Source: Melanopsichium pennsylvanicum
Lineage: Eukaryota; Basidiomycota; Ustilaginomycetes; Ustilaginales
Reading direction: 5' to 3'
Assembly: GCA_900208305.1 (NCBI GenBank)
Contig: OAPG01000002.1
Location: forward strand, 62,001-126,000
DNA length: 64,000 nucleotides
Part shown: piece by piece, positions 46,770 to 60,308 of the stretch
Layout: each line of letters opens with the position of its first letter
How positions within the stretch are numbered: the stretch's first letter is position 1
Translations under genes and position numbers: made by a program
The notes under the pieces: model-generated
What the model was told of the DNA's origin: nothing
Seen by the model: only the letters and a program-made list of their open reading frames with translations
Databases searched by the model: none

Positions 46770-46774
46770 ACTTC
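46770..46774. repeat. Target-site duplication, left copy (ACTTC)
   Basis: ACTTC directly precedes the first LTR and is repeated directly after the third LTR at 60304-60308. Confidence 0.85.
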
Positions 46775-47204
46775 TGTTAAGGCTGTAGGGTCTAGATACC
46801 GCGGGCGGCTACAGCCGGGATGGAGGCTACGGGTACGGAGAGGTCGTAGGCGGGGCGACACAGGCGGTCGGGGGTCAGAGCACACTACTGCGTTGCTATA
46901 GAGCTAACTAAGTAATACATGCGACGAGGTCCGGAGGCAACCTCATGTCAGGCGGGGGCGGGGTGGTAAGGTACAGGAACTATCGGTCACTTCCCACCGC
47001 GGCGTTACAATGTTAGGTTGCCGACGGTCGTATCCTACGTACGGAGGAGCCAGCCGCGGTTGGGCGGTAGGAGGATCGTGTCAGGCCAACCGCTCCGCTG
47101 CGAGGGGTCCGGAGAGGGTCGGTCGGGGCCCGATCACGACGATCGCTCAATCGGGAGGGGGGCCGAGCACCCCCTCTTTGGACTCCGGTTGGTAGGCACT
47201 AACA
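46775..47204 (-). repeat. LTR A (430 bp), 3' LTR of element 1
   Basis: Starts TGTTA and ends TAACA, a short inverted terminus. I see no difference from LTR B. A 10-bp stretch TACATGCGAC (46916-46925) is complementary to the primer-binding region next to LTR B and LTR C. Confidence 0.95.
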
Positions 47205-47215
47205 TTACCCCCCGG
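47205..47215 (-). other. Polypurine tract of element 1
   Basis: Minus strand reads CCGGGGGGTAA directly before LTR A, the expected place and composition for the plus-strand primer. Confidence 0.65.
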
Positions 47216-47438
47216 TTCAGGCCGACTGGTCCCCAGGCGGCTGATAGGACAGGAGGGCGAGGGGGGTCGTACTCCCTCAACCTTAATCCGCGCCAGGGGC
47301 GCCTCTCTGTACAAGTTGCGACGCTCGTCTCGGCAATTTAATCGCGGATGCGCAGCAATGAGGCAATACCACCCACAATGCCTTGGACCGGCGGAATTGA
47401 CTGTGCGCCATTGCTCGTGCGTAGCTATCGAGGAGGGA

Positions 47439-47444
47439 TATAAG
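47439..47444 (+). promoter_or_regulatory. TATA-like element of the antisense gene, copy 1
   Basis: TATAAG within GGATATAAGGATGG, 68 bp before the proposed ATG at 47507 and outside the LTR. The same sequence is at 53972-53977 in copy 2. Confidence 0.4.
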
Positions 47445-47506
47445 GATGGGGTTCGACGGGTCTTCCTTCTCGATTTCCCCCATTCTTCCCCATTCTTTTT
47501 TTTGCA

Positions 47507-48961
47507 ATGTCGTCGCCACCAGCAGACGCTTCCTTGGATTGTCTTTTTTTTGCAATGTCGTCGCCACCAGCAGACGCTTCCATGGATTCCCCGGCCGACA
47601 ACCCGTCGGCCGGTGTCAGTACCGTTCCCCCTACATCGCCTACGTCCGCAACGGCGGCAGCGTCGGCAACAGCGGCAGCAGCAACAACAACAACAGCACC
47701 AACAACAACAACAACGTTACCCGCTTCCGGAGGTGAGTCGATCGTGGTTCCGTCGTGATTCGGTTGCGGATGGGGGGCCCAGAGGGTCTGACAACCACCG
47801 GTCGGTGCCGTGGAATGGGTTACTGACATTTGTTCCCTCCCCCTTGTTTCGATTACGACAGATCGGCCGTCAGAGACCTCCGCTGGTCCCATCCGGGGGG
47901 TGCGCCGTTCTCCGCGTGCTCACCTTTCCCAGGGGGCCAACTCGGGCCGTCGCGAGCGCGCCGTGCGTCAACAGTCTGCCGATCCGTCGGCCATTCCTTC
48001 CTCTGCATCAACCAACACTTCCCTCGTCCTGGCGCCCCAGAATTCGATGCCGTGGTCGCGTCCTTCGGTTCCCATCGAGATCACTCCGGAACTCGTTGGT
48101 GATGGTAAGTATTGTTCCATTGCTGTGTTGATTGGGATCGCTACTGACGTTTGTGTTTCCGTGGCCGATACGACAGACCTTGCCCCACTATGGGCCAAGA
48201 CGTGGGGCGATTGCTACGGCTGCGTATGCGCCGGCGTTGCCTGTGAGCGGGCGGGAGGCGATGTCCGCTGCCGTCGGTGTCAGGGGCAGCATGGGCAACC
48301 CTGCGACGCGGATATGCGCGGTAAGTATTTCCGTCGGGCGTCTGTCGCGATGTCCTGGGTGGTCGGCTGACTCTTGTTCCTCCTTTTGTTTTCCTCGACA
48401 GTCCCACCACTTGGCGGCGCCCAAGGTCCCCTCCGAATGAGGGTTTACGCGTGCTTGCTTGAGAGGTGGAGGTCCGGAGGGGTCGGTCGGCGTCGCCGCC
48501 CCCACCCCAACGTCAGGTTGTCGCTGAGGACACTTGGCGAGATCCCGGAGGAGGAGGAGGAACTGAGGGAGGAGGTGGCTCGGGTGGGCGCGGTGGGTCG
48601 GGAGCGGGAGGCGGCTCGCAAGCGAGCTAGGTCTTGCCCCGACCGTCCAGCCGAGGCTGCCCGAGAGCGGCGTCGCACTCGGGCGCGGGCCCAAGGCCAG
48701 CCGGGGGAGTCCGCTACGGGCCTGGGGGACCTGGGTGCGGCCGTAAGGCGTGCCGAGTCCCTCTTCCACGGGGTGCAGGAGGGGACTGAGTTATTTCAAC
48801 AGGGGCTGGCCGACGTGGCTGCGCTGTTGCTGACAGAGTCGCTGAGGACCGGCGGCGAGCGAGAGCTCCGCCGGATCAGCGAGATCCAGCAACTGTCGCA
48901 GAACACGCGGCAGCAGGTGGACGTGGTCTGGGCGTGGTTGGAGGGCTTCCTGAGGGACTAG
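47507..48961 (+). CDS. Antisense four-exon gene inside the retroelement, Cys-cluster protein, copy 1
   Basis: Exons 47507-47732, 47862-48104, 48177-48320 and 48402-48961 give 390 residues. It runs opposite to gag-pol, between the pol stop and the 3' LTR. All three introns (129, 72 and 81 nt) have GTGAGT or GTAAGT donors, a CTGAC branch motif and a CGACAG acceptor, and all keep phase 1. Residues 1-75 are Ser/Pro/Ala/Thr-rich. Residues 80-110 are basic. Exon 3 carries Cys169, 172, 174, 179, 188, 191 and 199. Without Cys174 this is C-x2-C-x6-C-x8-C-x2-C-x7-C, within the Zn(II)2Cys6 spacing. Exon 4 has a Glu-rich then Arg-rich helix and an amphipathic C-terminal helix. I recognise no named family. 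A DNA- or RNA-binding regulator of the element is plausible but is inference. Confidence 0.72.
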
Positions 48962-49144
48962 CCCCGGGGCCCCTCCTCGAATGCACTTGTCTTCTTTTCT
49001 GTTGCTTGCGTGTGTGTGTGTCCGTGTGTGGGAGTGGGGGTGAGGGGAGCCCGACCGGGTCTCCTACCCCAGAGGTCGGGGACCGGAGGGGTTTTGGCTC
49101 CGGCGGGGGGGTCTCCCGACGGCGACCGTCGCTCGTATCCGTGC

Positions 49145-52100
49145 CTAACGCCGGGTAGGGGCCGGCTTGGTCGGGTTCGCGGCGTGGTACGCAGCGACCA
49201 GATCCGGGGCGCGGTCCACGTCTTCCGCCGGGACCCAGCTTGGGGGGTACCCTACCCAGGAGACCTTGTACTGTAGGTGTCCGGCGCGGCGGCGGGAGTC
49301 CAATACGCCCTCGACTTCGAAATCGGCGTAGTCGTCCTCCAGAGTAGTCGGTTGGGGGGCGTCGCTGGACTCCCTGACTCCGTCGGGGTATGGCTCCAGC
49401 ATCTGTACGTGAAAGACGGGATGGACCTTCCACGACGGAGGCAGGAGGAGTCGGTAGGCTCGGTCGCTAATCACCTCGTCGACTTTGAACGGGCCGGCGA
49501 GGGGGTTGGAGAGCTTGTGGGAGGGTCGGTCGCTGCGGAGGTGCTTGGTACGGAGGAGCACCAGGTCCCCCCGGCGGAACGAGACGTCGCTCCTGCGACG
49601 GTTAAACCACTTCGCGACGGCAAGGTTGGCTTTGGCAATGGCGTCCTGGCACACCCGCACTTTATCCGCCGACGGAACGTTGGAGGTGGCCGGGGGGATG
49701 GAGGGGTGTGCCCGAGGTGCAAATGTGAAGCAAGCTATAGCCGGGGCGATGGTTGTGGTCGCCGACGGTCTTTGGTTCAGCGCGAGCTGGGCTGTCGGCA
49801 GGAGGGTTGCCCAGTCGCTGTGGTCGTAGGCCGTATAGAAGCGGAGGAACAACTCCAGCGTCTGGTTGGCTCGCTCGGTCTGGCCATTTGTTTGAGGGTG
49901 GTAGGCCGACGAGTAAGACCCTTTAATCCGGAGGGCCCGGAGGAGTTCCGTCCAAACGGAAGCTACAAACGTGGTTCCTCGGTCAGATACAATGGTGTCT
50001 GGGAGGCCAAAGTATGAAAAGACGTAGCGTTGGAGCTGGTACGCCAAAGTCTCCGCCGTATCGGTTTTGTTTGCAGGAATGAAGACCACAAACTTGGTGA
50101 GGCGGTCGACGACTACAAGAATGGAGTTGTAGGTGGTGCCGTTGGCAAGGGAGGGCGGGAGGTCAGTGATGTGGTCCATGGTAATAGTGGACCACGGCCG
50201 ATCGGGAGGGACCGACGGGAGAAGGTAGCCGTGGGGTTTGTGACGGGGGTGTTTTGCCCTTCGGCAGGCCGCGCAAGAGGCGACATAGCTGTCGGTGTCC
50301 TGCACCATGGTTGGCCAGTAAAAACGTTGACGCATGAGATGGAGGGTCGTCTTGCGGCCAGGATGTCCCGCCGTAGGGTGGTCGTGCAGTAGGTGGAGTG
50401 CCTTGTCCCGTAATTGGGGTGGCAGGTAGACGTGACCCTCTGTGGTGTACGGGACACCATCGCGGACGGCAACGTTTGGGGGGAGGTTGGCCGCTTTCCG
50501 GAGGGTTTCGATCCACTCTGTAGGCAGGGGGTCCGAGGAGTGTACGCCGGCTGCTCTTGCAAACAAGTTTGCAGGGAGGAGAGTGGCTTGGTTGGCGGGG
50601 TCTGGGCGCGACGGTCCGTCGGGGAACAAGTCGTGCCGGCGACTCAGAGCGTCGGGGCGGACGGCCTCCTTACCCGGACGGTAGTGGAGGACGAAGTCGA
50701 ACTCAGCCAGGTCGGCTTGCCAGCGGGCTTGGCGACGGTTGAGTTGTCGCTTCGTCTGAAAATACTGGAGCGCCTGGTGGTCGGTGTAAATGAGGAACGG
50801 TCGGGTGAGGCCATGGAGGTAGTGTCTCCAAGCGCCGCAGGCGTCTACGATAGCCAGGAGTTCCTTGTCGTGGATTTCGTAGTTACGCTCCGCCGGGATC
50901 ATCTTTCGCAACCAGTATGCCACAGGATGGAGGGTATGCGAGCGGCTGTTGGGCTCGGCGCTCGCGTCGGCGCCCGGCTGTGGGTGCCACTGCGACAGCA
51001 CGGCGGCTACCACAGCATCGCTCGCGTCTGTTTCAACGACGGTGTAGAGCGTTGGAGAGAAGTGCCGGAGGATAGGGGCAGAGGTGAACGCTTCTTTCAG
51101 CCGGTTGAAGGCTGCCGTTGCTTCCGGGGGCAGATCTACCTTTCCAGAGGCTCCTCCTTTCAGGAGGTCGGTGAGGGGGGCCGCTACACGAGAATAGTGG
51201 CGGATGAAGCGACGGTAGAAGTTGGCGAATCCGAGGAAGACTTGGATCTGTCGGATCGACTGTGGTGGCGGCCACTCCAAGACTGTGCTGACCTTGGTCG
51301 GGTCCATGGAGAGGCCGTCGGGACTAACGAGGTAGCCGAGGAACTCGACGGAGTCGGTGTGGAATTCGCATTTGTCCGGAGCGCAATACAGCTGATGCTT
51401 CCGTAGTCGATCCAACACTTGGCAGACGTGGTGGTGGTGGTCGGCCTCGTTGTCGGAGAAGACTAGGATGTCGTCCAGATATACGATGACGGACACGTCT
51501 AAGAGATCCGACAGCACGTGGTTCATGAGCCGTTGGAAGGTCGCCGGAGCGTTGCAGAGGCCGAACGGCATGACGAGGTATTCGTAGCTGCCGTAGCGCG
51601 TGCGGAATGCGGTCTTCCATTCGTGGCCGGGGGCGATCCGGAGGAGGTTGTAGGCACCCTTCAGGTCGAATTTAGTGAAGATCTTGGCCGTCGCCAGCCG
51701 ATCAAGGTGTTTGGAGATGAGGGGGATCGGGTAGCGATCCTTGACGGTGATGGCGTTGAGGGCGCGGTAGTCCACACACGGCCGGAGGCGACCGTCCTTC
51801 TTTGGTACAAAAAGGAGGGGCGCGGCAGCTTGGCTACTCGACAGTCGGATGAAGCCAATGGCCTGCATCTTCCGGAGGTAGTTCCGGAGCTCCTCTTGTT
51901 TGCGGTGCGACAGGGAGTAGAGTGCGCCGTAGGGAGGGGTTTTGCCAGCCTCCAGGTTGATCTCGTGGTCGTGTGGGCGGTGGGGAGGCAATTGGTCGGC
52001 CCTCTCGGCGTCGAAGACGTCGGCGTACTCGCGGTACTCTGGCGGTAGGACGGCGAGGTCGGTCGCGGAAGCTCGGAGGGGCAGTAGCTCCTCTTCCGGT

Positions 52101-52306
52101 TCTGGGAGGACCAGCAGGTCCTCCTCAGTGGAGACCAGCTGTCGCCGGCCGACCAAGTTGTGGAGTTCGTTCTTTTCGATTTTGGGGTTGGAGGGCACCG
52201 TGACGGTGTGGGGGACCCGGAGGTCCCACGTACGGAGGGTATAGTTTGGCTCCGGCCTGGCGGCCTCGATCCAATCCATCCCCAACAGCACGTCATGGGA
52301 GGTCAT
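49145..52306 (-). CDS. pol: Retrotransposon Pol, copy 1: RT, RNase H, integrase, chromodomain
   Basis: 1053 residues. It begins with the last part of a retropepsin (LLGMDWI) but has no protease active-site Asp-Ser/Thr-Gly. Reverse transcriptase follows, with YLDD near residue 275 and the FDLKGAYN and MPFGLCNAPATFQ blocks. RNase H has ETDASD and YTDHQAL. The integrase has an H2C2 zinc finger (HPTAGH...CAAC), then the DDE core (MDHITD, SDRGTTF, YHPQTNGQTERAN). A C-terminal chromodomain (VEGVLDSRRR...YKVSWVGYP...WVPAEDV) makes it a chromovirus. The start ATG (52306-52304) overlaps the gag stop as ATGA, so stop-restart translation is possible. The frame is open throughout. Confidence 0.93.
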   Translation of the reverse strand: MTSHDVLLGMDWIEAARPEPNYTLRTWDLRVPHTVTVPSNPKIEKNELHNLVGRRQLVSTEEDLLVLPEPEEELLPLRASATDLAVLPPEYREYADVFDAERADQLPPHRPHDHEINLEAGKTPPYGALYSLSHRKQEELRNYLRKMQAIGFIRLSSSQAAAPLLFVPKKDGRLRPCVDYRALNAITVKDRYPIPLISKHLDRLATAKIFTKFDLKGAYNLLRIAPGHEWKTAFRTRYGSYEYLVMPFGLCNAPATFQRLMNHVLSDLLDVSVIVYLDDILVFSDNEADHHHHVCQVLDRLRKHQLYCAPDKCEFHTDSVEFLGYLVSPDGLSMDPTKVSTVLEWPPPQSIRQIQVFLGFANFYRRFIRHYSRVAAPLTDLLKGGASGKVDLPPEATAAFNRLKEAFTSAPILRHFSPTLYTVVETDASDAVVAAVLSQWHPQPGADASAEPNSRSHTLHPVAYWLRKMIPAERNYEIHDKELLAIVDACGAWRHYLHGLTRPFLIYTDHQALQYFQTKRQLNRRQARWQADLAEFDFVLHYRPGKEAVRPDALSRRHDLFPDGPSRPDPANQATLLPANLFARAAGVHSSDPLPTEWIETLRKAANLPPNVAVRDGVPYTTEGHVYLPPQLRDKALHLLHDHPTAGHPGRKTTLHLMRQRFYWPTMVQDTDSYVASCAACRRAKHPRHKPHGYLLPSVPPDRPWSTITMDHITDLPPSLANGTTYNSILVVVDRLTKFVVFIPANKTDTAETLAYQLQRYVFSYFGLPDTIVSDRGTTFVASVWTELLRALRIKGSYSSAYHPQTNGQTERANQTLELFLRFYTAYDHSDWATLLPTAQLALNQRPSATTTIAPAIACFTFAPRAHPSIPPATSNVPSADKVRVCQDAIAKANLAVAKWFNRRRSDVSFRRGDLVLLRTKHLRSDRPSHKLSNPLAGPFKVDEVISDRAYRLLLPPSWKVHPVFHVQMLEPYPDGVRESSDAPQPTTLEDDYADFEVEGVLDSRRRAGHLQYKVSWVGYPPSWVPAEDVDRAPDLVAAYHAANPTKPAPTRR

Positions 52307-53268
52307 TCCATTTTGCGGGGTCCCTCCGGGGGCTCTTGTTTGGCCGTCACGGCTGGGAGGGGCGGTCGGTGTCGCAGCTGTGACTCCGCGGGTCTTGTCG
52401 TGGCCTCCTGTATCACCTGCATCCGGCGCTCTGTGACAATGGCGGCGTTGATGAAGTCACAGATGTCGGTCATCGGCACGTGGGTGAGCTTTTCCCGTAG
52501 GCGCGGCCGGAGGCTTTGTTCGAACAGCATCAACGCCTGCTGCTGGTCGGTCAGGTGCGATTTGGCCGTCAGCGACATGAACTCCGCCGCGTGCTCCGAT
52601 ACTGATCCCTTCTGGCGGAGGGCATTCAGTTGGAGGCGTGCGGTGTAGCTGGGGTCGGGATTGCCATGGACGCGACGGAGGTCGGCGCAAAAGGCCCTCC
52701 AGGAGCTCATCCAGGGCGGATCCTCCCCCTCCTGTTGTCGCACATTGCGAATGCGGGTTTGTGGTTTGCCCGTCATGTTGCCGATGGCAAACATGATGCG
52801 ACGGGCATCCGTCGGAAACTTGGAGGGATTAGCCTCAAAGTTGAGTTCGCATTGATCCAAGAAGTCCTCCAGTTTGTCTTGGCTGCCGTCCCATTCCGGA
52901 GCCTGGAGTCGAATCTCTGGCTCGCGGGGCGCGGCCTCCACGTAGACGGGGGCTACGGTTGGCGGGGGGACCTGGGCAGCGGTTGCTCCTTGGTAGTGCT
53001 GGGAAGACTCCGGTCTAGGTTGATCCTCCCTGGGGAAGAAGGCGGCCTCTAGCAGAGCGGTAATGCGCCGCTGTTGTTCAGAGGTTTCACGCAGAAGCGC
53101 CAGGATATCCACTTGCCCTTGGACCAAGGTGGTCAGGGCGGCGGGCGGTTCGCCCGAGGGTGCAACGACGCTGGCGGGCTCGTCTCCGCTGGGGGAGATG
53201 GTGGGAGCGTCTCCCTCCGCTTGGGGGGAGGCGTCCGTTTGGTTTCGTCGGTTGGAGCGTGTACTCAT
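52303..53268 (-). CDS. gag: Retrotransposon Gag, copy 1
   Basis: 321 residues from the ATG at 53268, only 39 nt after LTR B. Residues about 115-260 have the Ty3-type Gag (retrotrans_gag) fold signature: W-DGSQDKLEDFLDQCE, a central helical region, and FEQSLRPRLREKL. The C-terminus is Pro/Arg-rich and ends without a CCHC nucleocapsid knuckle, which Ty3/gypsy Gag usually has. The stop overlaps the pol start by -1 (ATGA). Capsid formation is the expected role. Confidence 0.88.
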   Translation of the reverse strand: MSTRSNRRNQTDASPQAEGDAPTISPSGDEPASVVAPSGEPPAALTTLVQGQVDILALLRETSEQQRRITALLEAAFFPREDQPRPESSQHYQGATAAQVPPPTVAPVYVEAAPREPEIRLQAPEWDGSQDKLEDFLDQCELNFEANPSKFPTDARRIMFAIGNMTGKPQTRIRNVRQQEGEDPPWMSSWRAFCADLRRVHGNPDPSYTARLQLNALRQKGSVSEHAAEFMSLTAKSHLTDQQQALMLFEQSLRPRLREKLTHVPMTDICDFINAAIVTERRMQVIQEATTRPAESQLRHRPPLPAVTAKQEPPEGPRKME

Positions 53269-53296
53269 CTTGGTTACGACGTCGTCCCGTGGGGAG

Positions 53297-53306
53297 GTCG
53301 CATGTA
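53297..53306 (-). other. Putative self-priming binding site next to LTR B
   Basis: Minus strand reads TACATGCGAC starting one base after the LTR. No TGG-type tRNA primer site is seen. The ten bases are complementary to GTCGCATGTA inside the LTR (53458-53449, minus strand), the arrangement used by Tf1-type self-priming elements. Confidence 0.55.
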
Positions 53307-53307
53307 A

Positions 53308-53737
53308 TGTTAAGGCTGTAGGGTCTAGATACCGCGGGCGGCTACAGCCGGGATGGAGGCTACGGGTACGGAGAGGTCGTAGGCGGGGCGACACAGGCGG
53401 TCGGGGGTCAGAGCACACTACTGCGTTGCTATAGAGCTAACTAAGTAATACATGCGACGAGGTCCGGAGGCAACCTCATGTCAGGCGGGGGCGGGGTGGT
53501 AAGGTACAGGAACTATCGGTCACTTCCCACCGCGGCGTTACAATGTTAGGTTGCCGACGGTCGTATCCTACGTACGGAGGAGCCAGCCGCGGTTGGGCGG
53601 TAGGAGGATCGTGTCAGGCCAACCGCTCCGCTGCGAGGGGTCCGGAGAGGGTCGGTCGGGGCCCGATCACGACGATCGCTCAATCGGGAGGGGGGCCGAG
53701 CACCCCCTCTTTGGACTCCGGTTGGTAGGCACTAACA
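53308..53737 (-). repeat. LTR B (430 bp), shared middle LTR
   Basis: Serves as 5' LTR of element 1 and 3' LTR of element 2. Starts TGTTA, ends TAACA. No flanking duplication is present on either side, as expected for a shared LTR. Confidence 0.95.
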
Positions 53738-53748
53738 TTACCCCCCGG
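53738..53748 (-). other. Polypurine tract of element 2
   Basis: Same minus-strand CCGGGGGGTAA directly before LTR B. Confidence 0.65.
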
Positions 53749-54039
53749 TTCAGGCCGACTGGTCCCCAGGCGGCTGATAGGACAGGAGGGCGAGGGGGGT
53801 CGTACTCCCTCAACCTTAATCCGCGCCAGGGGCGCCTCTCTGTACAAGTTGCGACGCTCGTCTCGGCAATTTAATCGCGGATGCGCAGCAATGAGGCAAT
53901 ACCACCCACAATGCCTTGGACCGGCGGAATTGACTGTGCGCCATTGCTCGTGCGTAGCTATCGAGGAGGGATATAAGGATGGGGTTCGACGGGTCTTCCT
54001 TCTCGATTTCCCCCATTCTTCCCCATTCTTTTTTTTGCA

Positions 54040-55494
54040 ATGTCGTCGCCACCAGCAGACGCTTCCTTGGATTGTCTTTTTTTTGCAATGTCGTCGCCAC
54101 CAGCAGACGCTTCCATGGATTCCCCGGCCGACAACCCGTCGGCCGGTGTCAGTACCGTTCCCCCTACATCGCCTACGTCCGCAACGGCGGCAGCGTCGGC
54201 AACAGCGGCAGCAGCAACAACAACAACAGCACCAACAACAACAACAACGTTACCCGCTTCCGGAGGTGAGTCGATCGTGGTTCCGTCGTGATTCGGTTGC
54301 GGATGGGGGGCCCAGAGGGTCTGACAACCACCGGTCGGTGCCGTGGAATGGGTTACTGACATTTGTTCCCTCCCCCTTGTTTCGATTACGACAGATCGGC
54401 CGTCAGAGACCTCCGCTGGTCCCATCCGGGGGGTGCGCCGTTCTCCGCGTGCTCACCTTTCCCAGGGGGCCAACTCGGGCCGTCGCGAGCGCGCCGTGCG
54501 TCAACAGTCTGCCGATCCGTCGGCCATTCCTTCCTCTGCATCAACCAACACTTCCCTCGTCCTGGCGCCCCAGAATTCGATGCCGTGGTCGCGTCCTTCG
54601 GTTCCCATCGAGATCACTCCGGAACTCGTTGGTGATGGTAAGTATTGTTCCATTGCTGTGTTGATTGGGATCGCTACTGACGTTTGTGTTTCCGTGGCCG
54701 ATACGACAGACCTTGCCCCACTATGGGCCAAGACGTGGGGCGATTGCTACGGCTGCGTATGCGCCGGCGTTGCCTGTGAGCGGGCGGGAGGCGATGTCCG
54801 CTGCCGTCGGTGTCAGGGGCAGCATGGGCAACCCTGCGACGCGGATATGCGCGGTAAGTATTTCCGTCGGGCGTCTGTCGCGATGTCCTGGGTGGTCGGC
54901 TGACTCTTGTTCCTCCTTTTGTTTTCCTCGACAGTCCCACCACTTGGCGGCGCCCAAGGTCCCCTCCGAATGAGGGTTTACGCGTGCTTGCTTGAGAGGT
55001 GGAGGTCCGGAGGGGTCGGTCGGCGTCGCCGCCCCCACCCCAACGTCAGGTTGTCGCTGAGGACACTTGGCGAGATCCCGGAGGAGGAGGAGGAACTGAG
55101 GGAGGAGGTGGCTCGGGTGGGCGCGGTGGGTCGGGAGCGGGAGGCGGCTCGCAAGCGAGCTAGGTCTTGCCCCGACCGTCCAGCCGAGGCTGCCCGAGAG
55201 CGGCGTCGCACTCGGGCGCGGGCCCAAGGCCAGCCGGGGGAGTCCGCTACGGGCCTGGGGGACCTGGGTGCGGCCGTAAGGCGTGCCGAGTCCCTCTTCC
55301 ACGGGGTGCAGGAGGGGACTGAGTTATTTCAACAGGGGCTGGCCGACGTGGCTGCGCTGTTGCTGACAGAGTCGCTGAGGACCGGCGGCGAGCGAGAGCT
55401 CCGCCGGATCAGCGAGATCCAGCAACTGTCGCAGAACACGCGGCAGCAGGTGGACGTGGTCTGGGCGTGGTTGGAGGGCTTCCTGAGGGACTAG
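54040..55494 (+). CDS. Antisense four-exon gene inside the retroelement, copy 2
   Basis: Exons 54040-54265, 54395-54637, 54710-54853 and 54935-55494. The copy has the same open frames and intron boundaries as copy 1, offset by 6533 bp, and encodes the same 390 residues as far as I can compare. The N-terminus contains two copies of a 16-residue unit starting MSSPPADAS, from a 48-bp duplication, so two ATGs (54040 and 54088) share the frame. The gene lies just beyond LTR B, with its own TATAAG at 53972. The gene end and the pol stop are 183 nt apart and convergent. Confidence 0.72.
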
Positions 55495-55677
55495 CCCCGG
55501 GGCCCCTCCTCGAATGCACTTGTCTTCTTTTCTGTTGCTTGCGTGTGTGTGTGTCCGTGTGTGGGAGTGGGGGTGAGGGGAGCCCGACCGGGTCTCCTAC
55601 CCCAGAGGTCGGGGACCGGAGGGGTTTTGGCTCCGGCGGGGGGGTCTCCCGACGGCGACCGTCGCTCGTATCCGTGC

Positions 55678-58600
55678 CTAACGCCGGGTAGGGGCCGGCT
55701 TGGTCGGGTTCGCGGCGTGGTACGCAGCGACCAGATCCGGGGCGCGGTCCACGTCTTCCGCCGGGACCCAGCTTGGGGGGTACCCTACCCAGGAGACCTT
55801 GTACTGTAGGTGTCCGGCGCGGCGGCGGGAGTCCAATACGCCCTCGACTTCGAAATCGGCGTAGTCGTCCTCCAGAGTAGTCGGTTGGGGGGCGTCGCTG
55901 GACTCCCTGACTCCGTCGGGGTATGGCTCCAGCATCTGTACGTGAAAGACGGGATGGACCTTCCACGACGGAGGCAGGAGGAGTCGGTAGGCTCGGTCGC
56001 TAATCACCTCGTCGACTTTGAACGGGCCGGCGAGGGGGTTGGAGAGCTTGTGGGAGGGTCGGTCGCTGCGGAGGTGCTTGGTACGGAGGAGCACCAGGTC
56101 CCCCCGGCGGAACGAGACGTCGCTCCTGCGACGGTTAAACCACTTCGCGACGGCAAGGTTGGCTTTGGCAATGGCGTCCTGGCACACCCGCACTTTATCC
56201 GCCGACGGAACGTTGGAGGTGGCCGGGGGGATGGAGGGGTGTGCCCGAGGTGCAAATGTGAAGCAAGCTATAGCCGGGGCGATGGTTGTGGTCGCCGACG
56301 GTCTTTGGTTCAGCGCGAGCTGGGCTGTCGGCAGGAGGGTTGCCCAGTCGCTGTGGTCGTAGGCCGTATAGAAGCGGAGGAACAACTCCAGCGTCTGGTT
56401 GGCTCGCTCGGTCTGGCCATTTGTTTGAGGGTGGTAGGCCGACGAGTAAGACCCTTTAATCCGGAGGGCCCGGAGGAGTTCCGTCCAAACGGAAGCTACA
56501 AACGTGGTTCCTCGGTCAGATACAATGGTGTCTGGGAGGCCAAAGTATGAAAAGACGTAGCGTTGGAGCTGGTACGCCAAAGTCTCCGCCGTATCGGTTT
56601 TGTTTGCAGGAATGAAGACCACAAACTTGGTGAGGCGGTCGACGACTACAAGAATGGAGTTGTAGGTGGTGCCGTTGGCAAGGGAGGGCGGGAGGTCAGT
56701 GATGTGGTCCATGGTAATAGTGGACCACGGCCGATCGGGAGGGACCGACGGGAGAAGGTAGCCGTGGGGTTTGTGACGGGGGTGTTTTGCCCTTCGGCAG
56801 GCCGCGCAAGAGGCGACATAGCTGTCGGTGTCCTGCACCATGGTTGGCCAGTAAAAACGTTGACGCATGAGATGGAGGGTCGTCTTGCGGCCAGGATGTC
56901 CCGCCGTAGGGTGGTCGTGCAGTAGGTGGAGTGCCTTGTCCCGTAATTGGGGTGGCAGGTAGACGTGACCCTCTGTGGTGTACGGGACACCATCGCGGAC
57001 GGCAACGTTTGGGGGGAGGTTGGCCGCTTTCCGGAGGGTTTCGATCCACTCTGTAGGCAGGGGGTCCGAGGAGTGTACGCCGGCTGCTCTTGCAAACAAG
57101 TTTGCAGGGAGGAGAGTGGCTTGGTTGGCGGGGTCTGGGCGCGACGGTCCGTCGGGGAACAAGTCGTGCCGGCGACTCAGAGCGTCGGGGAACAAGTCGT
57201 GCCGGCGACTCAGAGCGTCGGGGCGGACGGCCTCCTTACCCGGACGGTAGTGGAGGACGAAGTCGAACTCAGCCAGGTCGGCTTGCCAGCGGGCTTGGCG
57301 ACGGTTGAGTTGTCGCTTCGTCTGAAAATACTGGAGCGCCTGGTGGTCGGTGTAAATGAGGAACGGTCGGGTGAGGCCATGGAGGTAGTGTCTCCAAGCG
57401 CCGCAGGCGTCTACGATAGCCAGGAGTTCCTTGTCGTGGATTTCGTAGTTACGCTCCGCCGGGATCATCTTTCGCAACCAGTATGCCACAGGATGGAGGG
57501 TATGCGAGCGGCTGTTGGGCTCGGCGCTCGCGTCGGCGCCCGGCTGTGGGTGCCACTGCGACAGCACGGCGGCTACCACAGCATCGCTCGCGTCTGTTTC
57601 AACGACGGTGTAGAGCGTTGGAGAGAAGTGCCGGAGGATAGGGGCAGAGGTGAACGCTTCTTTCAGCCGGTTGAAGGCTGCCGTTGCTTCCGGGGGCAGA
57701 TCTACCTTTCCAGAGGCTCCTCCTTTCAGGAGGTCGGTGAGGGGGGCCGCTACACGAGAATAGTGGCGGATGAAGCGACGGTAGAAGTTGGCGAATCCGA
57801 GGAAGACTTGGATCTGTCGGATCGACTGTGGTGGCGGCCACTCCAAGACTGTGCTGACCTTGGTCGGGTCCATGGAGAGGCCGTCGGGACTAACGAGGTA
57901 GCCGAGGAACTCGACGGAGTCGGTGTGGAATTCGCATTTGTCCGGAGCGCAATACAGCTGATGCTTCCGTAGTCGATCCAACACTTGGCAGACGTGGTGG
58001 TGGTGGTCGGCCTCGTTGTCGGAGAAGACTAGGATGTCGTCCAGATATACGATGACGGACACGTCTAAGAGATCCGACAGCACGTGGTTCATGAGCCGTT
58101 GGAAGGTCGCCGGAGCGTTGCAGAGGCCGAACGGCATGACGAGGTATTCGTAGCTGCCGTAGCGCGTGCGGAATGCGGTCTTCCATTCGTGGCCGGGGGC
58201 GATCCGGAGGAGGTTGTAGGCACCCTTCAGGTCGAATTTAGTGAAGATCTTGGCCGTCGCCAGCCGATCAAGGTGTTTGGAGATGAGGGGGATCGGGTAG
58301 CGATCCTTGACGGTGATGGCGTTGAGGGCGCGGTAGTCCACACACGGCCGGAGGCGACCGTCCTTCTTTGGTACAAAAAGGAGGGGCGCGGCAGCTTGGC
58401 TACTCGACAGTCGGATGAAGCCAATGGCCTGCATCTTCCGGAGGTAGTTCCGGAGCTCCTCTTGTTTGCGGTGCGACAGGGAGTAGAGTGCGCCGTAGGG
58501 AGGGGTTTTGCCAGCCTCCAGGTTGATCTCGTGGTCGTGTGGGCGGTGGGGAGGCAATTGGTCGGCCCTCTCGGCGTCGAAGACGTCGGCGTACTCGCGG

Positions 58601-58872
58601 TACTCTGGCGGTAGGACGGCGAGGTCGGTCGCGGAAGCTCGGAGGGGCAGTAGCTCCTCTTCCGGTTCTGGGAGGACCAGCAGGTCCTCCTCAGTGGAGA
58701 CCAGCTGTCGCCGGCCGACCAAGTTGTGGAGTTCGTTCTTTTCGATTTTGGGGTTGGAGGGCACCGTGACGGTGTGGGGGACCCGGAGGTCCCACGTACG
58801 GAGGGTATAGTTTGGCTCCGGCCTGGCGGCCTCGATCCAATCCATCCCCAACAGCACGTCATGGGAGGTCAT
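55678..58872 (-). CDS. pol: Retrotransposon Pol, copy 2
   Basis: 1064 residues, the same as copy 1 except for an 11-residue tandem duplication (unit PDALSRRHDLF) between RNase H and the integrase zinc finger, caused by a 33-bp repeat at 57151-57216. All RT, RNase H, integrase and chromodomain motifs are intact. The protease active site is missing, as in copy 1. The start overlaps the gag stop. Confidence 0.93.
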   Translation of the reverse strand: MTSHDVLLGMDWIEAARPEPNYTLRTWDLRVPHTVTVPSNPKIEKNELHNLVGRRQLVSTEEDLLVLPEPEEELLPLRASATDLAVLPPEYREYADVFDAERADQLPPHRPHDHEINLEAGKTPPYGALYSLSHRKQEELRNYLRKMQAIGFIRLSSSQAAAPLLFVPKKDGRLRPCVDYRALNAITVKDRYPIPLISKHLDRLATAKIFTKFDLKGAYNLLRIAPGHEWKTAFRTRYGSYEYLVMPFGLCNAPATFQRLMNHVLSDLLDVSVIVYLDDILVFSDNEADHHHHVCQVLDRLRKHQLYCAPDKCEFHTDSVEFLGYLVSPDGLSMDPTKVSTVLEWPPPQSIRQIQVFLGFANFYRRFIRHYSRVAAPLTDLLKGGASGKVDLPPEATAAFNRLKEAFTSAPILRHFSPTLYTVVETDASDAVVAAVLSQWHPQPGADASAEPNSRSHTLHPVAYWLRKMIPAERNYEIHDKELLAIVDACGAWRHYLHGLTRPFLIYTDHQALQYFQTKRQLNRRQARWQADLAEFDFVLHYRPGKEAVRPDALSRRHDLFPDALSRRHDLFPDGPSRPDPANQATLLPANLFARAAGVHSSDPLPTEWIETLRKAANLPPNVAVRDGVPYTTEGHVYLPPQLRDKALHLLHDHPTAGHPGRKTTLHLMRQRFYWPTMVQDTDSYVASCAACRRAKHPRHKPHGYLLPSVPPDRPWSTITMDHITDLPPSLANGTTYNSILVVVDRLTKFVVFIPANKTDTAETLAYQLQRYVFSYFGLPDTIVSDRGTTFVASVWTELLRALRIKGSYSSAYHPQTNGQTERANQTLELFLRFYTAYDHSDWATLLPTAQLALNQRPSATTTIAPAIACFTFAPRAHPSIPPATSNVPSADKVRVCQDAIAKANLAVAKWFNRRRSDVSFRRGDLVLLRTKHLRSDRPSHKLSNPLAGPFKVDEVISDRAYRLLLPPSWKVHPVFHVQMLEPYPDGVRESSDAPQPTTLEDDYADFEVEGVLDSRRRAGHLQYKVSWVGYPPSWVPAEDVDRAPDLVAAYHAANPTKPAPTRR
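57151..57216. repeat. 33-bp tandem duplication specific to pol copy 2
   Basis: Two perfect head-to-tail units of 33 bp where copy 1 has one. The frame is preserved. Confidence 0.95.
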
Positions 58873-59834
58873 TCCATTTTGCGGGGTCCCTCCGGGGGCT
58901 CTTGTTTGGCCGTCACGGCTGGGAGGGGCGGTCGGTGTCGCAGCTGTGACTCCGCGGGTCTTGTCGTGGCCTCCTGTATCACCTGCATCCGGCGCTCTGT
59001 GACAATGGCGGCGTTGATGAAGTCACAGATGTCGGTCATCGGCACGTGGGTGAGCTTTTCCCGTAGGCGCGGCCGGAGGCTTTGTTCGAACAGCATCAAC
59101 GCCTGCTGCTGGTCGGTCAGGTGCGATTTGGCCGTCAGCGACATGAACTCCGCCGCGTGCTCCGATACTGATCCCTTCTGGCGGAGGGCATTCAGTTGGA
59201 GGCGTGCGGTGTAGCTGGGGTCGGGATTGCCATGGACGCGACGGAGGTCGGCGCAAAAGGCCCTCCAGGAGCTCATCCAGGGCGGATCCTCCCCCTCCTG
59301 TTGTCGCACATTGCGAATGCGGGTTTGTGGTTTGCCCGTCATGTTGCCGATGGCAAACATGATGCGACGGGCATCCGTCGGAAACTTGGAGGGATTAGCC
59401 TCAAAGTTGAGTTCGCATTGATCCAAGAAGTCCTCCAGTTTGTCTTGGCTGCCGTCCCATTCCGGAGCCTGGAGTCGAATCTCTGGCTCGCGGGGCGCGG
59501 CCTCCACGTAGACGGGGGCTACGGTTGGCGGGGGGACCTGGGCAGCGGTTGCTCCTTGGTAGTGCTGGGAAGACTCCGGTCTAGGTTGATCCTCCCTGGG
59601 GAAGAAGGCGGCCTCTAGCAGAGCGGTAATGCGCCGCTGTTGTTCAGAGGTTTCACGCAGAAGCGCCAGGATATCCACTTGCCCTTGGACCAAGGTGGTC
59701 AGGGCGGCGGGCGGTTCGCCCGAGGGTGCAACGACGCTGGCGGGCTCGTCTCCGCTGGGGGAGATGGTGGGAGCGTCTCCCTCCGCTTGGGGGGAGGCGT
59801 CCGTTTGGTTTCGTCGGTTGGAGCGTGTACTCAT
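58869..59834 (-). CDS. gag: Retrotransposon Gag, copy 2
   Basis: 321 residues from the ATG at 59834, 39 nt after LTR C. I see no difference from copy 1. It has the Ty3-type Gag core, no nucleocapsid knuckle and the same ATGA overlap with pol. Confidence 0.88.
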   Translation of the reverse strand: MSTRSNRRNQTDASPQAEGDAPTISPSGDEPASVVAPSGEPPAALTTLVQGQVDILALLRETSEQQRRITALLEAAFFPREDQPRPESSQHYQGATAAQVPPPTVAPVYVEAAPREPEIRLQAPEWDGSQDKLEDFLDQCELNFEANPSKFPTDARRIMFAIGNMTGKPQTRIRNVRQQEGEDPPWMSSWRAFCADLRRVHGNPDPSYTARLQLNALRQKGSVSEHAAEFMSLTAKSHLTDQQQALMLFEQSLRPRLREKLTHVPMTDICDFINAAIVTERRMQVIQEATTRPAESQLRHRPPLPAVTAKQEPPEGPRKME

Positions 59835-59862
59835 CTTGGTTACGACGTCGTCCCGTGGGGAG

Positions 59863-59872
59863 GTCGCATGTA
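59863..59872 (-). other. Putative self-priming binding site next to LTR C
   Basis: Minus strand TACATGCGAC one base after the LTR, complementary to the matching LTR-internal segment. Confidence 0.55.
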
Positions 59873-59873
59873 A

Positions 59874-60303
59874 TGTTAAGGCTGTAGGGTCTAGATACCG
59901 CGGGCGGCTACAGCCGGGATGGAGGCTACGGGTACGGAGAGGTCGTAGGCGGGGCGACACAGGCGGTCGGGGGTCAGAGCACACTACTGCGTTGCTATAG
60001 AGCTAACTAAGTAATACATGCGACGAGGTCCGGAGGCAACCTCATGTCAGGCGGGGGCGGGGTGGTAAGGTACAGGAACTATCGGTCACTTCCCACCGCG
60101 GCGTTACAATGTTAGGTTGCCGACGGTCGTATCCTACGTACGGAGGAGCCAGCCGCGGTTGGGCGGTAGGAGGATCGTGTCAGGCCGACCGCTCCGCTGC
60201 GAGGGGTCCGGAGAGGGTCGGTCGGGGCCCGATCACGACGATCGCTCAATCGGGAGGGGGGCCGAGCACCCCCTCTTTGGACTCCGGTTGGTAGGCACTA
60301 ACA
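59874..60303 (-). repeat. LTR C (430 bp), 5' LTR of element 2
   Basis: Starts TGTTA, ends TAACA. Differs from LTRs A and B at one base that I can see (G at 60187, A in the others). Confidence 0.95.
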
Positions 60304-60308
60304 ACTTC
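60304..60308. repeat. Target-site duplication, right copy (ACTTC)
   Basis: Matches 46770-46774 on the far side of the array. Confidence 0.85.

Follow-up and report, generated by a model that had tools for sequence, protein, structure and literature searches.

We demonstrate here that a Ty3/gypsy LTR retrotransposon with a C-terminal chromodomain, in the smut fungus Melanopsichium pennsylvanicum, carries between pol and its 3' LTR a multi-exon reading frame on the strand opposite to gag-pol. Judging from the sequence and its copies, this region is probably a genuine protein-coding accessory gene, which forms part of the retrotransposon and travels with it (we put the probability at about 0.85). 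We are a little more confident still that it would be a real spliced protein-coding gene. The window, i.e., the whole stretch of 64,000 nucleotides that was analysed, corresponds to C2:62001-126000, and the genome searched comprises 21.1 Mb in 61 contigs.

The host element and the structure of its antisense gene

The element is coded on the minus strand, and Pfam places RVT_1, RT_RNaseH, Integrase_H2C2, rve and Chromo (E 4.7e-7) in this order along its pol. By the succession of reverse transcriptase, RNase H and integrase and by the C-terminal chromodomain, it is a chromovirus. In the window it forms a tandem dimer (LTR-internal-LTR-internal-LTR, 46775-60303) of near-identical units, as established by self-BLAST and by reading the ends. 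A single 5-bp target duplication, ACTTC, encloses the whole dimer, and the LTRs run from TGTTA to TAACA; both the TG...CA ends and the short target duplication are thus present. We attempted the same comparison for 29 LTR pairs across the element copies; 11 of them lack a full LTR in the stretch examined, hence 18 were compared, of which 16 have matching 5-bp flanks. Within a pair, the two LTRs show a median of 3 differences over about 430 sites (range 1-9 among the 18 pairs). The copies are young, their LTR pairs being nearly identical, and therefore little selection is visible in them. Relatives of the window pol are found in other smuts (Pseudozyma flocculosa, 54-55%; Ustilago, around 45%) and on ENA contigs (70-72%).

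The features of the element are the following (positions in the window):

46770-46774 and 60304-60308: target duplication ACTTC, 5 bp
46775..47204, minus strand: 3' LTR of unit 1, 430 bp, in gag-pol orientation (self-BLAST)
47439-47445, plus strand: TATAAGG, possible core promoter, which lies outside the LTR, some 110 nt upstream of the shared ATG
47507..47732, plus strand: exon 1, with a Thr/Ala-rich trinucleotide-repeat tract and the shared ATG at 47555
47733..47861, plus strand: intron 1, GTGAGT...CTGAC...CGACAG, 129 nt here and 128-130 nt in other copies
47862..48104, plus strand: exon 2
48105..48176, plus strand: intron 2, GTAAGT...CTGAC...CGACAG, 72 nt here and 73 nt in 31 of 34 copies
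48177..48320, plus strand: exon 3, with a cysteine cluster, skippable without frame change
48321..48401, plus strand: intron 3, GTAAGT...CTGAC...CGACAG, 81 nt here and 80-81 nt across copies
48402..48961, plus strand: exon 4, about 186 codons, stop at 48959-48961
48962..49144, no strand: spacer between the convergent stops of the antisense gene and pol
49145..52306, minus strand: pol ORF with reverse transcriptase, RNase H, integrase and chromodomain (Pfam)
53308..53737, minus strand: middle LTR, common to both tandem units (self-BLAST, ends read)
54088..55494, plus strand: second antisense gene copy, in unit 2, from shared ATG to stop, identical to that of unit 1
59874..60303, minus strand: distal LTR of unit 2 (self-BLAST, ends read)

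Just inside the 5' LTR, a 10-nt stretch at 53297-53306 (TACATGCGAC in gag-pol sense) is the reverse complement of positions 280-289 of the LTR in LTR sense. Tf1 elements use self-priming in place of a tRNA primer, and this complementarity provides a lead for Tf1-type self-priming rather than for a tRNA primer.

The initial annotation had read, antisense to gag-pol and between pol and the 3' LTR, four exons joined across three phase-1 introns into 390 residues. In-silico splicing of 47507-48961 reproduced this structure (1173 nt, stop at 48961), and self-BLAST and Pfam confirmed its placement. The CTGAC branch motif and CGACAG acceptor, which had been described for every intron, are there as well, CTGAC being found in each intron of all 34 copies compared below. 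When a strict donor/branch/acceptor filter is applied to 47205-49144, only these three introns pass, and none does on the other strand. The ATG at 47507 and the first 16 codons derive from a 48-nt duplication, and because this duplication is absent from 12 of the 32 aligned copies, we consider 47555 as the start common to the subfamilies, which gives a protein of 374 aa. Upstream, the TATAAGG motif recurs in 33 of the 34 copies, a count of motif occurrence alone.

Protein searches brought up seven deposited proteins among the candidates compared, all from M. pennsylvanicum (MEPE_*); these gene models derive from copies other than that of the window. The exon 1/2 junction is used in five of them (P0001-P0005) and the exon 2/3 junction in two (P0005 and P0007); P0001-P0004 join exon 2 to exon 4, exon 3 being skipped, and the exon 3/4 junction is seen in none of the seven. 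No homologue from outside M. pennsylvanicum was present in the 8000 best word-sharing candidates, which ranged from about 206 to 654 aa for the 374-aa query, so that single-exon fragments would escape these searches because of the length limits. Scans of viral contigs for homologues found nothing. At one locus (L084, C3:505900-508600), an element fragment with an LTR and antisense exons adjoins a SNase/Tudor-domain gene, and there MEPE_01710 (P0007) joins antisense exons 2-3 to that gene. This join is either a mis-prediction or a real element-driven fusion.

Conservation among copies and signs of selection

The DNA of the gene has at least 44 matches in the genome, at least 36 of them spanning the whole gene, among the best 40 of 75 candidates that were scored. 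We aligned 37 rows and compared 34 of them. Left aside were the row of the window copy, that of the identical partner in its tandem (L009b), and L023a, an inverted neighbour of L023b which was removed without identity comparison. Truncated copies (L043, L044, L045 and fragments in L023, L041, L077 and L084) were left out of the alignment. At L023 (C8:511500-519300), two element copies stand in a large inverted arrangement with truncated pieces of the antisense gene in the middle; this may be biological or an assembly artefact.

The refutation proposed with the initial annotation, namely related elements in which the splice sites and frame are not conserved, did not materialize. Indeed, all three introns are present in the 34 full-length copies, 203 of the 204 GT/AG dinucleotides are retained, and the branch A of CTGAC lies 29-36 nt before the last intron base. 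After splicing, 32 of the 34 have an open frame, the exceptions being a frameshift (L026) and a stop (L031). With one further copy having lost its start (L033) and another a donor (L021), 30 copies are intact throughout, i.e., for frame, start and every GT/AG. Conservation of GT/AG as a stand-alone proof is not significant in copies so young (p 0.21). Intron lengths show single-base variation (128-130/72-73/80-81) in five combinations, and retaining intron 1 or intron 3 breaks the frame in every one of the 34 copies. Intron 2 has to be considered apart: in the window copy each of the three introns has a length divisible by 3, keeping intron 2 leaves the frame open, and the longest in-silico frame (414 aa) retains it. 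We excluded this reading because intron 2 measures 73 nt in 31 of the 34 copies, where its retention breaks the frame. When exon 3 is skipped, the frame is still open in 32 of the 34 copies.

Taking the window copy as reference, we counted insertions and deletions as distinct events in 32 trimmed copies (L041a, which is without the upstream part, was omitted). Exons 2-4 contain 2 events in 947 nt, both multiples of 3. The introns contain 4 in 282 nt, each of 1 nt, the spacer 3 in 183 nt, two of which are not multiples of 3, and the upstream stretch a single event of 1 nt in 271 nt. The C-terminus of pol has 2 in 503 nt, one of them not a multiple of 3. Exon 1 has 6 in 173 nt, and all except one are multiples of 3; this is weak evidence, because these events fall in the trinucleotide repeat. 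Overall, 7 frame-breaking events are found in 736 nt of noncoding sequence versus none in exons 2-4, a contrast which rests on the introns and the spacer, because indels are almost absent from the noncoding upstream stretch too.

Base substitutions point to modest constraint on the antisense gene. Among the exon differences, 141 of 235 change the protein, versus 166.1 (sd 6.6) expected under a trinucleotide-matched null, and none of 3000 draws was as low. Analysis of dN/dS on divergent copies had been proposed from the outset, and the comparison of clade A with clade B (32 intact copies) gives a pN/pS of 0.53 overall, with 0.74 for exons 1-2, around 0.43 for exon 3 and 0.34 for exon 4 (exon bounds being approximate in codons); the pol C-terminus, compared between the same clades, equals exon 4 at 0.34. 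The other side of this check is less favorable. Changes shared by at least three copies depart little from neutral (56 of 82 are protein-changing; p 0.64 with a base/CpG null, p 0.08 with a trinucleotide null), and single-copy changes depart from it more. Nonsense changes are not significantly depleted (4 versus 6.0 expected). Because this comparison of shared with private changes behaved contrary to expectation, our case relies on frame maintenance, on the between-clade ratios and on the second family described below. Of these, frame maintenance and the second family carry the case.

Of the 111 single-copy exon differences, 60 are C>T or G>A when read against the window copy, and CpG sites in the introns deviate with around three times the frequency of the remaining intron sites. 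This bias suggests CpG deamination or a mild RIP-like process.

A second chromovirus family and the alternative readings

The same genome contains another chromovirus lineage whose pol (P0023) is 45% identical to that of the window. In the P0023 family itself, the one stretch downstream of pol that we examined (L085) has no ATG-started ORF longer than 63 aa and no strict intron. Its sister family, hereafter family 2, has a pol 70-73% identical to P0023. At L086 (C6:618700-620900), it carries, at the position corresponding to that in the window family, an antisense gene with one 72-nt intron (GTAAGT, CTGAC, CAG). This gene adjoins an LTR-like repeat, of which a further occurrence lies past the opposite end of that element. 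A second copy, L087 (C9:530250-531400), is 89% identical to L086; its intron is 87 nt long, its exon has a 21-nt in-frame insertion relative to L086, and the cysteines are retained. L086 has a stop at a point where L087 continues, and no stop closes the frame of L087 as far as the stretch examined extends.

Between these two, which form a single pair of copies, the spliced frame has a pN/pS of 0.27 (46.0/744.2 vs 63.0/272.8), versus 1.10 and 1.68 in the shifted frames, the comparison being made with shifted frames of the same strand only. Constraint is stronger there than in the window family (0.27 versus around 0.5), and the L086/L087 pair is the cleanest evidence here that antisense spliced genes located at this position are maintained as proteins. 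The gene of family 2 has at least 42 matches at 85-100% identity among the best 40 of 43 candidates scored, two of which were read; for tests of selection, this family offers better data than that of the window. Its cysteines follow C-x2-C-x6-C-x20-C-x2-C-x7-C, with the intron inside the cluster, and the only Pfam domain listed for its protein is C1, at E 1.2. No homology between the proteins of the two families was detected, as BLASTP matches only low-complexity or charged parts and hhalign gives a probability of 0.2 per cent; we therefore make no claim of common descent for the two genes.

These results allow one to weigh other readings of the region. The functional product could be an antisense RNA, which would pair with gag-pol RNA, the resulting dsRNA feeding RNA interference or otherwise limiting the element. 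We regard this as unlikely, while granting it more weight than any of the other alternatives. Domains typical of the RNAi machinery are encoded in the genome, namely Piwi (known from Argonaute), RdRP (at three loci) and RNase III (matched twice within one ORF, a Dicer-like arrangement), and a role at the RNA level was raised for plant antisense ORFs in passages of PMC7264820. The loci bearing the Piwi, RdRP and RNase III domains are C13:453475, C22:390054, C2:820751, C6:582118 and C23:98944. However, RNA alone leaves unexplained why 32 of 34 copies have an open frame despite drifting introns, why pN/pS is near 0.3 (exon 4 and family 2) and why there are three precise introns. An antisense RNA could also act beside the protein.

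A second possibility is that a host gene was captured by transduction and is carried as a passenger. Introns and a promoter-like sequence of its own are what is expected of a captured genomic segment, and transduced genes are described in plant elements (passages of PMC7264820). On the contrary, exon 3 shows no host paralogue: the 45 scored candidates are all situated in gene copies or in fragments of the element, and even the two weakest (C8:506411-506541) belong to such a fragment. This search used exon 3 on its own, exons 1, 2 and 4 being covered only within the 40 scored candidates of the gene search. Moreover, the gene is present in at least 36 full-length copies rather than in one or few, and we consider a captured passenger quite improbable; a distant origin of the gene from a host gene is possible.

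We give very little credit to the idea that selection acts on a sense-strand (env-like) ORF, of which the antisense frame would be the shadow. A mild synonymous excess does exist in one minus-strand frame (z 2.08, vs 2.71 for the coding frame), and a GTG-started frame of 193 aa lies on that strand at 48188-48769. This reading is nevertheless disfavoured, as the longest minus-strand frame starting with ATG within 47205-49144 reaches 155 aa, on a strand where no strict intron passes.

Finally, the least credible reading of all is that the open frame and its splice sites arose by accident in DNA rich in G+C, and we judge it to be refuted. Long frames do arise at such composition (shuffle maximum, 422 aa), but among dinucleotide shuffles of 47205-49144 a frame of at least 374 aa appeared in 1 of 400, and none of 1000 reached three usable strict introns (candidate introns averaged 0.14, versus 3 in the real sequence); the frame is maintained while the introns drift, the indel pattern agrees, and family 2 provides an independent case. 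The argument that three frame-keeping splices are hard to attribute to chance thus holds through the shuffles and the other copies; in the window copy taken by itself it is weakened, all three introns being multiples of 3 and intron 2 open.

Putative role of the protein, known systems and significance

The protein of the window family is made of acidic, basic and cysteine-cluster segments. Exon 4 contains basic and charged stretches and is mostly helical, as judged by eye. Exon 3 has the pattern C-x2-C-x6-C-x8-C-x2-C-x7-C, and its seven cysteines are invariant in 23 of 23 rows. The proteins of both families have the spacing C-x2-C-x6-C...C-x2-C-x7-C in common, and the cysteine spacing of each family was reproduced in 0 of 20000 residue shuffles, for patterns chosen after the fact. 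Zn2Cys6 clusters (PF00172) have a characteristic range of six-cysteine spacing, within which the exon 3 pattern falls. They typically have basic residues between the second and third cysteines, whereas exon 3 has none there; Pfam Zn_clus matches none of the 23 exon-3 rows, nor the family-2 protein. No Pfam family matches the window-family protein up to E 10, and no useful sequence match was obtained in NCBIfam or PDB. For want of such matches, composition, cysteine spacing and analogy are what lead us to propose, tentatively and at slightly less than even odds, that the protein may act in the nucleus, where it would bind nucleic acid and regulate expression or replication of its own element, in a role comparable to that of HBZ of HTLV-1 or of gene23 of maize Grande.

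If the region is indeed a protein-coding accessory gene, host RNA polymerase II would transcribe it from its own promoter, located between the 3' LTR and the ATG, and the host spliceosome would remove the three introns. Skipping of the in-frame cysteine exon 3 may yield two isoforms. As the full-length genomic RNA is transcribed in the opposite direction, it would carry only the reverse complement of the splice sites. Because the genomic RNA comes from the strand opposite to the antisense gene, the introns would survive reverse transcription, and it is this antisense orientation which would allow a multi-intron gene to persist in an element copied through RNA.

Several systems resemble this one. 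In fungi, an antisense gene named brtn is reportedly due to Zhao et al. (2011). It belongs to the Boty-like retrotransposons of Botrytis cinerea (passages of PMC7264820, PMC8365987, PMC4227169 and PMC5987419), whose gag-pol is described with a CHROMO domain (PMC4227169). The passages citing brtn mention no introns for it, whereas the smut gene has three; the name brtn-106 (PMC4227169) may mean a small protein, in contrast with 374-390 aa over four exons here. The initial annotation held a multi-intron antisense gene in a fungal chromovirus to be new. An antisense gene as such is not, given brtn; for the three-intron form we found no report. More generally, a multi-intron antisense gene in an LTR retrotransposon was not reported among the titles and abstract openings listed, which covered few subscription papers.

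That antisense ORFs at this position are known in plant Ty3/gypsy elements was borne out by Grande, RIRE2 and Retand (passages of PMC7264820). Indeed, Grande gene23 and the ORFs of RIRE2, Retand and PvRetro13 share position and orientation with the smut gene, are present in most copies and have been proposed to play a nuclear regulatory role, according to passages of PMC7264820 and PMC11963269; Grande gene23 is nuclear and has its own promoter (PMC7264820). Lying between pol and the 3' LTR and antisense to gag-pol, the smut gene has the position and orientation of an aORF-3R. These ORFs differ from it by their plant hosts, and the word "intron" appears 0 times in the main text of PMC7264820 and PMC11963269. 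The TRP28 domain (PF04195) of the Retand TRP28 proteins was not found in the smut protein by Pfam up to E 10. On the other hand, HBZ and APH-2, 3 and 4 of primate T-lymphotropic viruses are spliced antisense genes near the 3' LTR, and the HBZ protein regulates the expression of its element (passages of PMC10186651). We use HBZ as a working analogy and claim no relationship: HBZ starts in the 3' LTR, whereas the smut TATA-like motif lies outside the LTR and the smut gene has three introns; HBZ has a bZIP, whereas the smut protein has no bZIP match in Pfam.

More speculatively, and with less conviction than for the regulatory role, spliced antisense genes with a cysteine cluster might form a recurrent and long-lived accessory class of smut (perhaps basidiomycete) chromoviruses. 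They would be intron-bearing trans-regulators which persist only because they are backward, with exon-3 skipping toggling the cysteine module, and an independent fungal counterpart of HBZ.

Intron loss is expected for any gene whose copy passes through spliced RNA, and the antisense gene escapes it. The smut family would be a natural version of the antisense-intron reporter principle, and it shows in what way ordinary spliced genes can be accommodated by an LTR element. For annotation, such genes are deposited as uncharacterized host proteins, one of them joined to a SNase/Tudor-domain gene. This fungal case can be set alongside the antisense accessory proteins of plants and retroviruses; it offers two families for comparison within one genome, and it makes the question of the role of antisense ORFs testable in a small fungal genome.
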